From positions 1 to 42,949 of the IMG/VR virus record IMGVR_UViG_3300025168_000016: DNA of 42,949 bases, one strand, 5' to 3'. The notes under the pieces were generated by a model. That model was not told where the DNA came from. It searched no databases and was given only the letters and a program-made list of their open reading frames with translations. Both the position numbers and the translations under genes were made by a program. Below are positions 17,018 through 38,699 of this stretch, piece by piece (the first letter of the stretch is position 1; every line of letters starts with the position of its first letter). This DNA comes from a virus.

Positions 17018-17230
17018 CTAAAAAGGACTCTCATCCTTTCCTTTTTGTACTTTAACCGTTCCTGACAAGTAACGCTTCCCATTTTTGTCTTTATTTATCC
17101 AAAGGGCAACGTCTTTCATGGTTCCGTCAAACATTCCGTTTCCGGTATAGTCTGGTTTTTTGTCACCATCTTCCTTGTAGGTATTCTTCCAAAGCTTAAA
17201 GCTCTGGTCTTTTTGCTGATATTCAGCCAT
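17018..17230 (-). CDS. Small DUF736-like protein, possible ssDNA-binding
   Basis: 70 residues. The central pattern D-Y-T-G-x-G..D-G....V-A-L-W-I-N-x-x-x-x-G-K-R-Y-L-S-G resembles small DUF736-like phage and plasmid proteins with an OB-like beta fold. AAGGAGATCAG lies before the ATG. The gene sits beside recombination nucleases and downstream of a 5'-UTR stem element (17251-17337). Function inferred only. Confidence 0.6.
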   Translation of the reverse strand: MAEYQQKDQSFKLWKNTYKEDGDKKPDYTGNGMFDGTMKDVALWINKDKNGKRYLSGTVKVQKGKDESPF

Positions 17231-17250
17231 TCTGATCTCCTTGTTTGTAA

Positions 17251-17337
17251 CGGGTTAGTATAAACATACTTTTACGAGCCAACGTATTTTATTTGACACT
17301 TTTTAAAGTGTTATTAATTATGCTTATAACTAACCCG
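17251..17337 (-). ncRNA. 5'-UTR stem-loop element upstream of the 17018 gene
   Basis: CGGGTTAGT (17251-17259) pairs with ACTAACCCG (17329-17337), enclosing the hairpin ACACTTT-TT-AAAGTGT (17296-17311). The alternative AGTAT-AAAC-ATACT (17257-17270) competes with the outer arm. The outer stem ends 20 nt before the ATG at 17230. Part of the element overlaps the 3' end of the 17314 gene. Confidence 0.5.
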
Positions 17338-17481
17338 CTTTTTTCTGTTTAGTAAAATTCTTTTTAACTTCATCATTCTCTGAAAAGCTGATCCGTATTG
17401 ATGTACCCTATCTTCCAGTACTAACTTTTCATAAACTCTTATAATCTCTTTTAAACCTAGCTTCTTATGATTTGTTGCCAT
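17314..17481 (-). CDS. Small basic hypothetical protein (55 aa)
   Basis: A gene read from sequence: ATG at 17481 with AAGGAG seven bases upstream, stop TAA at 17314-17316. The product is helical and very basic in its second half (RILLNRKKRV), suggesting nucleic-acid contact. It overlaps the end of the 17465 nuclease-like gene by 17 bases, so the two are probably co-translated. Confidence 0.65.
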   Translation of the reverse strand: MATNHKKLGLKEIIRVYEKLVLEDRVHQYGSAFQRMMKLKRILLNRKKRVSYKHN

Positions 17482-19217: not shown

Positions 19218-19625
19218 TTAAGCGTTTTGCATATCCTCTATTTTTTTAAGACACGCATCTAGGTTGTCTAAAGTAATAGTCCCATTCTTCAGTTGGTACT
19301 TTATCTTATTCTGATCCTGTTTTTTTAGGCCCACAATATTCTTTTCAATCTGTTCTGCTATATACTCATCGTCTGTTTGCTTAATCACCTCACCATCAAA
19401 CTTTTCAATGACTGCATTCTTAAACTCTTCAGGTGATAGCTTCTTATCTTTATTCACTATGTTTTTAACACCATCATAGCCGTGCACAACAAAATAAACC
19501 CAACGATCTATTTCTTTCATAGTGGCACTATCTAGTGATTTACCTTTAGAGAAAGCTTCCACAGCAAAACCATGTCTAATCTTCCCCTCTGTTATCTTAT
19601 CCCAATCGGGTTGTTTGTCGCTCAT
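19218..19625 (-). CDS. Hypothetical helical protein of recombination module
   Basis: 135 residues, nearly all helical, rich in Lys, Asp and Glu, no cysteine. The ATG overlaps the Cas4-like stop (ATGA), so the two are coupled. The position suits a partner of the nuclease, such as an annealing or loading factor, but no RecT/Erf/Sak motif is visible. Confidence 0.6.
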   Translation of the reverse strand: MSDKQPDWDKITEGKIRHGFAVEAFSKGKSLDSATMKEIDRWVYFVVHGYDGVKNIVNKDKKLSPEEFKNAVIEKFDGEVIKQTDDEYIAEQIEKNIVGLKKQDQNKIKYQLKNGTITLDNLDACLKKIEDMQNA

Positions 19626-20347
19626 AAATCGACTCCTTTTTCTTTTAATCCTCCACCACAGATCTTATAGAAGTTGCAATACTTCTCATTGCACTCCCAC
19701 TTATACACAGGAGCTACTCCAAGTTCTATGGGTGGATTTCCTTTTTCAAAAACCTTGTTCACATTACGCCAATACTCTTTTGCTTTATCTATGTAGGACA
19801 CAGGAATTACCTTCTCTCTCATCCTAGAGTTATCTTTGTTATAATATAGTAACGCTAATTTTTTTAATTTGTTCCCAGATTCTTTTTCATACCACCAACC
19901 ATAAGTTCCTAGTTGTAAATAATAATTAGTGGCTGGGTTAGGATCAGGGTTGCGACCAAATAAACCTTTCCATTTCCAAGCATTGCAAGTCTTTATATCA
20001 ATCAATGCTCCATCTTCTATAATCAACATATCTAAAAAGCCTCGCACATTTACTTCAGGTATTCTTATTTCTGTTTCAATAAGGACTTGAGCTCCGTTTA
20101 AAATGGCATACTCAGTAATAGCATCTTGAATGTCTCCATGTACCAAGTCACCTAACCTAAACAATCTCAATGTATCATCATTAATCTCTTTAGGAGGAAC
20201 ATCTGCAACGTGTTGAAAGTAATGCTTTCTCATGCACATCCCGGCACTAGATCCGTGAAACCACTGCTCATGTCCTTGATAACGATTCTTAAAATGTAAA
20301 GAATTCTTCTTCCTAAGCCAGTCGTGGTAAATTTTTTCAATATTCAT
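19622..20347 (-). CDS. Cas4/RecB-like PD-(D/E)XK exonuclease with predicted Fe-S cluster
   Basis: 241 residues. A cysteine at 38 (G-M-C-M-R-K), His70, Asp106, Asp117-Ile-Lys119, Gln145 in Y-Y-L-Q-L-G-T-Y-G, and C-terminal cysteines 219, 224 and 230 follow the order of Cas4/AddB-type nucleases: one early Cys and three late Cys for a 4Fe-4S cluster around a RecB nuclease core. There is no CRISPR array nearby, so a role in phage recombination or DNA-end processing is likely. AAGGA lies eight bases upstream of the ATG, behind a structured 5'-UTR (20368-20454). Confidence 0.82.
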   Translation of the reverse strand: MNIEKIYHDWLRKKNSLHFKNRYQGHEQWFHGSSAGMCMRKHYFQHVADVPPKEINDDTLRLFRLGDLVHGDIQDAITEYAILNGAQVLIETEIRIPEVNVRGFLDMLIIEDGALIDIKTCNAWKWKGLFGRNPDPNPATNYYLQLGTYGWWYEKESGNKLKKLALLYYNKDNSRMREKVIPVSYIDKAKEYWRNVNKVFEKGNPPIELGVAPVYKWECNEKYCNFYKICGGGLKEKGVDL

Positions 20348-20367: not shown

Positions 20368-20454
20368 TTAAGGGCGAGGATGCGGAGTGAGTGTAGTTGT
20401 GGTTGAACTGGAAGAATAGGAATATAACAAACCAGTTCATAACCTCGCCCTTAA
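20368..20454 (-). ncRNA. Nested stem-loop element in 5'-UTR of Cas4-like gene
   Basis: A perfect 12-bp outer stem, TTAAGGGCGAGG (20368-20379) with CCTCGCCCTTAA (20443-20454), encloses a second hairpin, TGAACTGG (20404-20411) with CCAGTTCA (20432-20439). It fills the 111-base gap 20348-20458. The outer stem ends 20 nt before the start codon. There is no U-tract, so it is not a standard terminator; processing, mRNA stability or attenuation are options. Confidence 0.7.
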
Positions 20455-22209: not shown

Positions 22210-22566
22210 TTATTTTTGTGATCTTTTCTCAGGTCTATCGTCACGATCTTTTAAGTCTTCGTGATGCAGGTAAGATAATAGTAATATTAAGTAATTAACA
22301 ATATCAGAGACCCTAGACTCTAAAGTCTCATTGCTAAAGGTTTGCCCTAGTTTAAAAAAGGTCAGTAAAGACTTGATATGCTTTACTAAATAAACGGCTA
22401 ATACCTTGACAGGGCTGAGACCTAACTCGTTCCCAATCCTTCTAAAATTAGTATGAACATCTATGTCCTGATTCCCTTCTGTATATTCAATTCTTTTTGC
22501 ATCGCTTAAGTCAAATGTTCTCTTAATAAATGCTTCTCTAAACTCTTTATATTTTTCAGACTTCAT
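22210..22566 (-). CDS. DUF1599/Nmad-like protein
   Basis: 118 residues. N-F-R-R-I-G, a hydrophobic V-K-V-L-A-V-Y-L-V-K-H helix, then N-E-x-L-E-S-R-V-S-D-I-V-N-Y-L match the layout of DUF1599 (nucleotide-modification-associated domain 1), predicted to act on modified nucleotides. No modification enzymes are seen here, so the link is tentative. AAAGGAAACAAA lies before the ATG, behind a long stem-loop. Confidence 0.5.
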   Translation of the reverse strand: MKSEKYKEFREAFIKRTFDLSDAKRIEYTEGNQDIDVHTNFRRIGNELGLSPVKVLAVYLVKHIKSLLTFFKLGQTFSNETLESRVSDIVNYLILLLSYLHHEDLKDRDDRPEKRSQK

Positions 22567-22584
22567 TTTGTTTCCTTTTTATTC

Positions 22585-22673
22585 AGTGGAGAGACATACT
22601 TCATTATCTTCACTATCTTCACTTTCAATCATTATTAGAGGGAAAGTGCAATAGTGAAGTACACCTCTCCACT
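22585..22673 (-). ncRNA. Long 5'-UTR stem-loop whose pairing works only on the minus strand
   Basis: On the leftward transcript AGUGGAGAG-GUGU-ACUUCA pairs with UGAAGU-AUGU-CUCUCCACU (22585-22603 with 22655-22673), 19 continuous base pairs of which three are G-U. On the plus strand those three would be A-C mismatches. An inner hairpin GAAAGTG/CACTTTC (22642-22648 with 22620-22626) follows, with an alternative TTCACTA/TAGTGAA pairing. It ends 18 nt before ATG 22566. Confidence 0.75.
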
Positions 22674-22680
22674 AGTTTTA

Positions 22681-22749
22681 TTAATCAATTGCTTTATAGT
22701 AAACTAAAATCATAACACCCATAACAAAAAATAATATTGCACTTAACAT
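22681..22749 (-). CDS. Micro-ORF, 22-aa membrane peptide
   Basis: ATG 22749 with AAGGTATTAAG upstream, stop TAA at 22681-22683. The 22 residues are one hydrophobic helix ending Y-Y-K-A-I-D. It overlaps the end of the 18-residue frame at 22743, suggesting coupled translation. Small size limits confidence. Confidence 0.45.
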   Translation of the reverse strand: MLSAILFFVMGVMILVYYKAID

Positions 22750-25276: not shown

Positions 25277-25303
25277 TATTTACCTACTTTTTTATATAGC
25301 TTC

Positions 25304-25375
25304 AGGTGAGGAGGTCGAAAGGTAATAATTTTAACAAACTGGTTAGTTTGGTTAATCTTTCTAATGTCCCCACCT
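25304..25375 (-). ncRNA. Nested stem-loop element upstream of the 25058 gene
   Basis: Outer arms AGGTGAGG (25304-25311) and CCCCACCT (25368-25375) pair through 8 bp on the leftward transcript; the one plus-strand mismatch (A-C) becomes a U-G wobble. Inside are GAAAG/CTTTC (25317-25321 with 25357-25361) and a tip hairpin TTAAC-AAACT / AGTTT-G-GTTAA (25331-25355). The outer stem ends 27 nt before ATG 25276. Confidence 0.65.
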
Positions 25376-25385
25376 TCAACTAATT

Positions 25386-25607
25386 CTATATTTTATTACC
25401 TACAAATTCGAATAAATCATCTGCTAAATAATCATGATCTTCATCATAATTTTTAGGTAATCCGTAACCGTCAATAGTTGAATCAAAAGAAATATGAGAA
25501 CTTTTCATCTCTAAACAAATATTAACCTGATCAACTACCCACCTTCTTAAGATAGATTTTATTTTTCTTTTACCTAGTAATCTATATATATCTTTATCTG
25601 ATACCAT
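25386..25607 (-). CDS. Hypothetical protein
   Basis: 73 residues, basic helical first half and acidic C-terminus (D-E-D-H-D-Y-L-A-D-D-L). CGGAGTGTAAA precedes ATG 25607; first gene after the promoter at 25635-25663. No family is recognised. Confidence 0.6.
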   Translation of the reverse strand: MVSDKDIYRLLGKRKIKSILRRWVVDQVNICLEMKSSHISFDSTIDGYGLPKNYDEDHDYLADDLFEFVGNKI

Positions 25608-27230: not shown

Positions 27231-27261
27231 AAATAATATAAAATATATATAAAATAATTTT

Positions 27262-27296
27262 AAATAAAAAAAAAGGGAGCCTTTCGGCTCCCCTTT
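27262..27296 (-). terminator. Intrinsic terminator after the DUF932 gene
   Basis: Leftward: GGGAGCC (27292-27286 side) pairs with GGCTCCC (27281-27275 side) around a GAAA loop, followed by nine consecutive U. It lies 26 bases past the 27318 stop and is a textbook Rho-independent terminator. Confidence 0.92.
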
Positions 27297-27317
27297 CTAT
27301 TAGTTAACAGTTGTCTA

Positions 27318-29042: not shown

Positions 29043-29160
29043 GCGGGTACTACTTTACTAAGCGGGTACTATATATACTATAATTACTATCTATACTATA
29101 ATTACTATATATACTATATATACTATATATAATATATATACTATATATACTATAGTACTA
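29043..29160. repeat. GCGGGTACTA pair and ACTATATAT-rich tract
   Basis: GCGGGTACTA occurs at 29043-29052 and 29062-29071, followed by about 90 bases of ACTATA/TATAC units. It sits in the 673-base divergent gap 28577-29249. Easy melting makes it an origin candidate; it is also the promoter region of both blocks. Confidence 0.75.
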
Positions 29161-38670: not shown

Positions 38671-38699
38671 TGAGGGTTGTCAATAAAAGACGACCCTCA
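38671..38699 (+). ncRNA. Stem-loop upstream of the 38719 gene (late-strand counterpart)
   Basis: TGAGGGTTGTC (38671-38681) pairs with GACGACCCTCA (38689-38699): 11 bp including a U-G wobble on the transcribed strand. Ends 19 nt before ATG 38719. No U-tract follows. It may reduce readthrough after the abundant capsid genes or protect the downstream message. Confidence 0.65.

Follow-up and report, generated by a model that had tools for sequence, protein, structure and literature searches.

The window, that is the whole stretch of 42,949 nucleotides analysed here (IMG/VR record IMGVR_UViG_3300025168_000016), comes from a tailed phage, as indicated by PHROGs assignments of a terminase, a portal and a major head protein. 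It is an uncultured phage of marine type for which no DNA match to phage records was found, and its protein relatives among these records are only distant ones. A hairpin of the minus strand lies between a micro-ORF and a 118-aa gene (Table 1). About 80 relatives of this gene are found in IMG/VR and none was found in bacterial genomes. Searches of the 118-aa protein against Pfam, NCBIfam and PDB sequences gave no match worth using. Its modelled fold (pLDDT 71) weakly suggests a resemblance to MazG-like pyrophosphatases (E 0.6).

Table 1. Coordinates of the hairpin, of its flanking genes and of two other leaders of the same operon.
Feature	Positions	Strand	Description and basis
Hairpin 5' arm	22655..22673	-	RNA sense AGUGGAGAGGUGUACUUCA; sequence and fold
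Hairpin 3' arm	22585..22603	-	RNA sense UGAAGUAUGUCUCUCCACU; sequence and fold
Hairpin interior	22604..22654	-	7-8 bp inner stems and 9-nt tandem repeat GUGAAGAUA, two registers; constrained folds
Linker, A-rich, up to ATG	22567..22584	-	Shine-Dalgarno (SD) sequence AAGGAA at 22572-22577; sequence
118-aa gene behind the hairpin	22210..22566	-	phrog_6802, unknown function; predicted all-helical
Micro-ORF upstream of the hairpin	22681..22749	-	hydrophobic, 22 aa; conserved in relatives
Cas4-like exonuclease leader hairpin	20368..20454	-	before gene 19622-20347; covarying in relatives
ssb leader hairpin	17249..17339	-	before ssb gene 17018-17230; covarying, conserved UUGGC loop motif

The hairpin is real, as confirmed from both sequence and fold. 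The 19-bp stem of the initial annotation is indeed made of 19 unbroken pairs between 22673-22655 (AGUGGAGAG GUGU ACUUCA) and 22603-22585 (UGAAGU AUGU CUCUCCACU). Read from the minus strand, which is taken as the transcribed strand because both flanking genes lie on it, the stem contains G-U, U-G, G-U and U-A in succession, hence three G-U among four pairs. It can be extended to 25 positions (22674-22650 / 22608-22584) with a single C-A mismatch. From the end of the 19-bp stem it is 7 nt to the SD and 18 nt to the ATG, and the SD stays free in the fold. The minus-strand RNA folds at -39.1 kcal/mol (z -7.0), a value that none of 200 shuffles equals, and the hairpin is the lowest-energy 100-nt segment when both strands of the whole window are compared. 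Without gaps, the stem scores 31, which 2 of 80 shuffled genomes also reached. The stem had been described as continuous only on the transcribed strand; this holds for the 19 bp, but the plus strand folds well too (-33.8 kcal/mol, z -5.8). A 21-codon frame starting with TTG (22563-22628, minus strand) also runs across the 3' half of the hairpin and overlaps the 118-aa gene by ATGA; it is probably due to chance.

Three contigs only carry the hairpin: the window, G001 (L002) and G002 (L003). They hold two near-identical versions, with 2 differences over 114 nt and none in the 19-bp arms. The compensatory changes that were looked for in homologous phages are absent from these hairpin-bearing contigs. 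Beyond the window, the two-arm pattern was found only in L067 and L100, which belong to the same contigs as L002 and L003, respectively; a broader scan with one arm gave mostly chance matches. In the same way, a covariance model built from the hairpin (R3) strongly finds only itself, and no second copy at other sites was found in the fetched relatives or in the viral scan.

Homologues that keep the flanking genes and lose the pairing had been named beforehand as evidence against the initial interpretation, and one relative goes part of the way. At this locus, G003 (L004) is 97-98% identical to G001, with near-identical flanking genes, and lacks a block of about 110 bp that includes the hairpin. 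At its hairpin-less junction, the micro-ORF stop and the start codon of the 118-aa gene overlap as ATGA; in the hairpin allele, TAATAA is followed by the hairpin and then by the gene's own SD. Two differences in the SD region adjoin the gap of G003, which suggests an allele exchange; an assembly loss is less probable. Absence of the hairpin is probably the ancestral state, since it is also absent from the more distant G006.

Hairpins unrelated to this one occupy the same leader position in other lineages of the 118-aa family (L195/L203; L236/L240). In the L195/L203 leader, a G-C pair of the outer stem is changed to A-U on both sides. The leaders of L240 (118-aa family gene at 1456, plus strand) and of L236 (64-aa gene at 2810, plus strand) are near-identical. 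A hairpin cassette moving between genes was considered for this pair and rejected, as the 64-aa gene of L236 behind the same leader precedes a gene of the 118-aa family.

Two other genes of the operon that carries the hairpin, encoding Ssb and a Cas4-like exonuclease, are each preceded at a short distance from their SD by a leader hairpin (Table 1). A strong SD-proximal stem is present in 41 of 53 ssb leaders and in 27 of 38 exonuclease leaders, both sets including some internal starts. Two covariance models, each derived from five sequences and run on a search space of 656 kb, found 49 ssb leaders (model R1) and 39 exonuclease leaders (model R2), including those of the window (E 0.001 and E 8e-6, respectively). 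On the resulting alignments, which are biased towards the model, 89% of cells are paired in the ssb leaders and 96% in the exonuclease leaders, with 210 and 125 changes affecting both sides of a pair. The covariation scores reach 0.614 for ssb, against at most 0.12 when slid, and 0.609 for the exonuclease, against at most 0.09. Furthermore, G-U outnumber A-C by 82:6 in the ssb stems and by 28:6 in the exonuclease stems, which is the polarity predicted by an RNA-level function.

In most ssb leaders (relatives L250-L303), the 5' arm is contained in the last part of the preceding ORF. The lineage of the window has an earlier stop in this ORF but keeps the UUGGC loop together with the stem that closes it. 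The ssb leader was not detected in the phages that encode the distant protein relatives. For the exonuclease leader (relatives L256-L303), outer and inner stems both covary, CACAACUACAC is conserved in the loop, and CACAACUACACAUCUC and CAYAYACYAAAGGA are conserved before the gene. The comparison of the window with Rfam 15 gave no match at the gathering cut-off and chance-level matches only at E<=10, none of them at the hairpin.

The hairpin before the 118-aa gene lies outside these two families by model score and is like them in layout. It shares with them the outer stem, the 40-70 nt enclosed, the short linker and the SD, in the same operon and on the same strand. It differs by non-significant scores (13.3 bits, E 0.18 at 22572-22677 with R1; 8.1 bits, E 1.8 with R2), even though it is the second-best match to the ssb model in the region, behind the true ssb leader. 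It also differs by the absence of the conserved loop motifs, UUGGC being absent from the interior (22604-22654) and CACAACUACAC from the loop. The initial annotation had taken the polarity of the stem as strong evidence for an RNA-level function. On the sense strand, four of the 25 stem positions depart from Watson-Crick pairing: three are G-U and one is A-C, which corresponds to a G-U on the opposite strand. This 3:1 ratio is roughly that expected by chance and, alone, is a weak argument. An RNA-level role is nevertheless plausible because the hairpin is co-directional with its neighbours, ends 7 nt before an SD and is analogous to the covarying ssb and exonuclease leaders.

The layout is enriched in the whole phage group. 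Stems scoring at least 17.5 close to the SD are found in 113 of 1522 distinct leaders of relatives, against 19.8 in shuffled controls and 19 on the antisense strand; as related leaders have a common ancestry, these counts are not independent events. Without ssb and exonuclease, the figures are 56, against 19 shuffled and 13 antisense. With all leaders counted, SD-proximal leader hairpins are 5-6 times as frequent as in shuffled controls. Some starts were misplaced by the gene calling, which was used solely to flag leaders.

Several leaders met in this survey deserve mention. L195 (65-aa gene at 1895, plus strand) and L203 (56-aa gene at 2294, plus strand) have short leader hairpins with the loop UGGUUGGCGUUA, whose stems differ yet stay paired; their GGUUGGC also occurs in ssb leaders. 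Another leader hairpin family (L183, L185, L187, L195, L203, L190 and L191), with the stem GGGCACAGAU/AUUUGUGCCC and the loop UCCUUU, heads genes of 64-77 aa (M..VEIHIK...), and different yet paired stems precede homologues of these genes in L188 and L194. A pseudoknot formed by the UCCUUU loop and the SD AAAGGA was considered and rejected, as loop and SD fail to change together. The window itself contains a structured leader that heads a 72-aa gene (25277-25390, minus strand; -26.9 kcal/mol, z -3.2), and a run of TATATAGTA-type repeats (29091-29155) that forms a long AT-rich palindrome between divergent gene blocks. It also contains a hairpin TGAGGGTTGTC/GACGACCCTCA (38671-38699, plus strand), located after the capsid region and ahead of a gene for a small Cys-rich protein, which is retained with altered pairs in L150 and L165.

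The reading that we favour, with a probability of about one half, is that the hairpin is a recently acquired cis-acting 5' leader of the 118-aa gene that would uncouple this gene from its neighbour and set its 5' context. This role is supported by the strongest fold of the window lying on the coding strand, immediately before an SD and with no T-run behind it, by the overlap of micro-ORF and gene in G003, by the enrichment of the layout, by the covariation and polarity of the sister leaders and by the hairpins found at this position in other lineages of the gene. Against it, the hairpin is dispensable in G003, is carried by three contigs only and scores below significance with R1 and R2. Its structure, its position, its presence or absence between near-identical phages, the overlap in G003, the enrichment and the covariation of the sister leaders are observations, whereas its RNA-level function, the uncoupling and the processing are inferred. 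In the polycistronic early mRNA, the hairpin would fold just upstream of the SD and leave it open. By separating the 118-aa gene from the micro-ORF, it may cause ribosomes to load on the gene's own SD instead of arriving by termination-reinitiation. It would probably also make a defined and protected 5' end, for which cutting of the 19-25 bp duplex by RNase III would be the most likely source. The hairpin would thus be a recent, lineage-specific gain in a genome that already uses the succession of stem, short A-rich linker, SD and gene.

Such a processing has a parallel in the early mRNA of T7, in which intercistronic hairpins lie within a polycistronic transcript. The T7 R1.1 RNA, of about 60 nt, receives one cut by the RNase III of E. 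coli (PMC4858673). Like the T7 signals, the hairpin is intercistronic and is a long duplex with an interior irregularity; with 19 perfect pairs, or 25 positions including one mismatch, it has the unbroken duplex of about 20 bp typical of them. Their sequences are unrelated, and a cut in the hairpin is a prediction.

The main rival to the leader reading is a neutral or DNA-level insertion, in which a recent fold-back segment of roughly 110 bp would have settled between two genes with no role in the mRNA. This is unlikely, but several features fit it. The block can be described as a palindrome that contains a 9-nt tandem duplication and has AATAAAA repeats on its flanks, it is present or absent between otherwise near-identical phages and missing from the distant G006, and the 3:1 polarity of its stem fits chance. 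Against it, the hairpin lies exactly before an open SD, in a layout that is over-represented on the coding strand in this phage group, and the copies at other sites expected of a mobile fold-back element were not found in the fetched relatives or in the viral scan. The identity of the arms between the window and L002 also points away from neutrality, which is a weak point as the whole stretch is well conserved.

By analogy with T4, the hairpin could also be a translational operator to which a phage protein in excess would bind, thereby repressing the 118-aa gene; we consider this rather improbable. The T4 proteins gp32 and gp43 bind to structured elements located ahead of the start of their own genes (PMC3014915, PMC535899). 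The 5' part of the operator reaches into the preceding ORF (PMC535899), a situation also seen in the ssb leaders of this phage group. These sister leaders, which head ssb and a recombination-type exonuclease, hence the class of genes autoregulated in T4 (PMC3014915, PMC535899), and the conserved UUGGC loop of the ssb leaders speak for an operator. The T4/RB69 gene 32/43 operators also resemble the hairpin as structured RNAs upstream of a replication-gene SD with an A+U-rich unpaired SD stretch. Their structure is either a pseudoknot located some 67 nt upstream or a small hairpin of 16-18 bases located some 40 nt upstream. On the other side, the hairpin lacks both loop motifs of its sister leaders, and the gene behind it encodes neither Ssb nor a polymerase but a protein in which no RNA- or DNA-binding family is recognised. 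The arrangement of the gene 32 operator, a pseudoknot 5' of an ssb SD, is not found here: only nested helices are predicted at the hairpin, by a program that models nested helices only, and the gene is not ssb. The STAXI motif (PMC2864571) is likewise structured and recurs close to ssb and to other genes for DNA handling; it consists of tandem pseudoknots, and no Rfam family matches the window.

A wider proposal is that gene-specific SD-proximal leaders run the early operon, that a common trans-acting factor reads their loops (UUGGC, UGGUUGGCGUUA) and that the hairpin has newly joined them; it is speculative and we regard it as doubtful.

The switch initially proposed, in which the RNA would be bistable and alternate between two folds that exclude each other, is very improbable. 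The inner UUCACUA/UAGUGAA pairing on which it was based is present; it amounts to a 9-nt shift in the register of one and the same stem, which the tandem GUGAAGAUA allows. Both registers do exist in the window and in its nearest relative L002, but they differ only in the location of the 9-nt bulge, which the repeat merely slides; the outer 18 bp or so are common to both, and the SD is equally accessible in either. Furthermore, the favoured register reverses between these relatives because of one G-to-A change: in constrained folds, the window favours the shifted register (-38.1 vs -34.1 kcal/mol) and L002 the unshifted one (-31.4 vs -28.2 kcal/mol). Lastly, an intrinsic terminator or attenuator is hardly credible despite a long, G+C-containing stem located between genes: the canonical form is refuted by AATAAAAAGGAAAC after the stem, with no T-run on the transcribed strand, the terminator scan is negative at the hairpin, and a terminator-like site of the window looks different (GGGGAGCC GAAA GGCTCCC followed by a T-run, 27260-27307).

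Taken alone, the hairpin would be a modest, lineage-specific leader, and its context weighs more. The ssb and exonuclease leaders represent two new, strongly covarying families of cis-regulatory RNAs from uncultured phages, absent from Rfam, and the enrichment of SD-proximal hairpins spans the early operon of the phage group. The theme known from T4, structured leaders on replication genes, is thus extended to unrelated phages. If a common factor does read these leaders, the hairpin would have turned a coupled 118-aa gene into an independently controlled one. The window or G001, compared with G003, offers a natural present/absent pair for the effect of a leader on a coupled gene.
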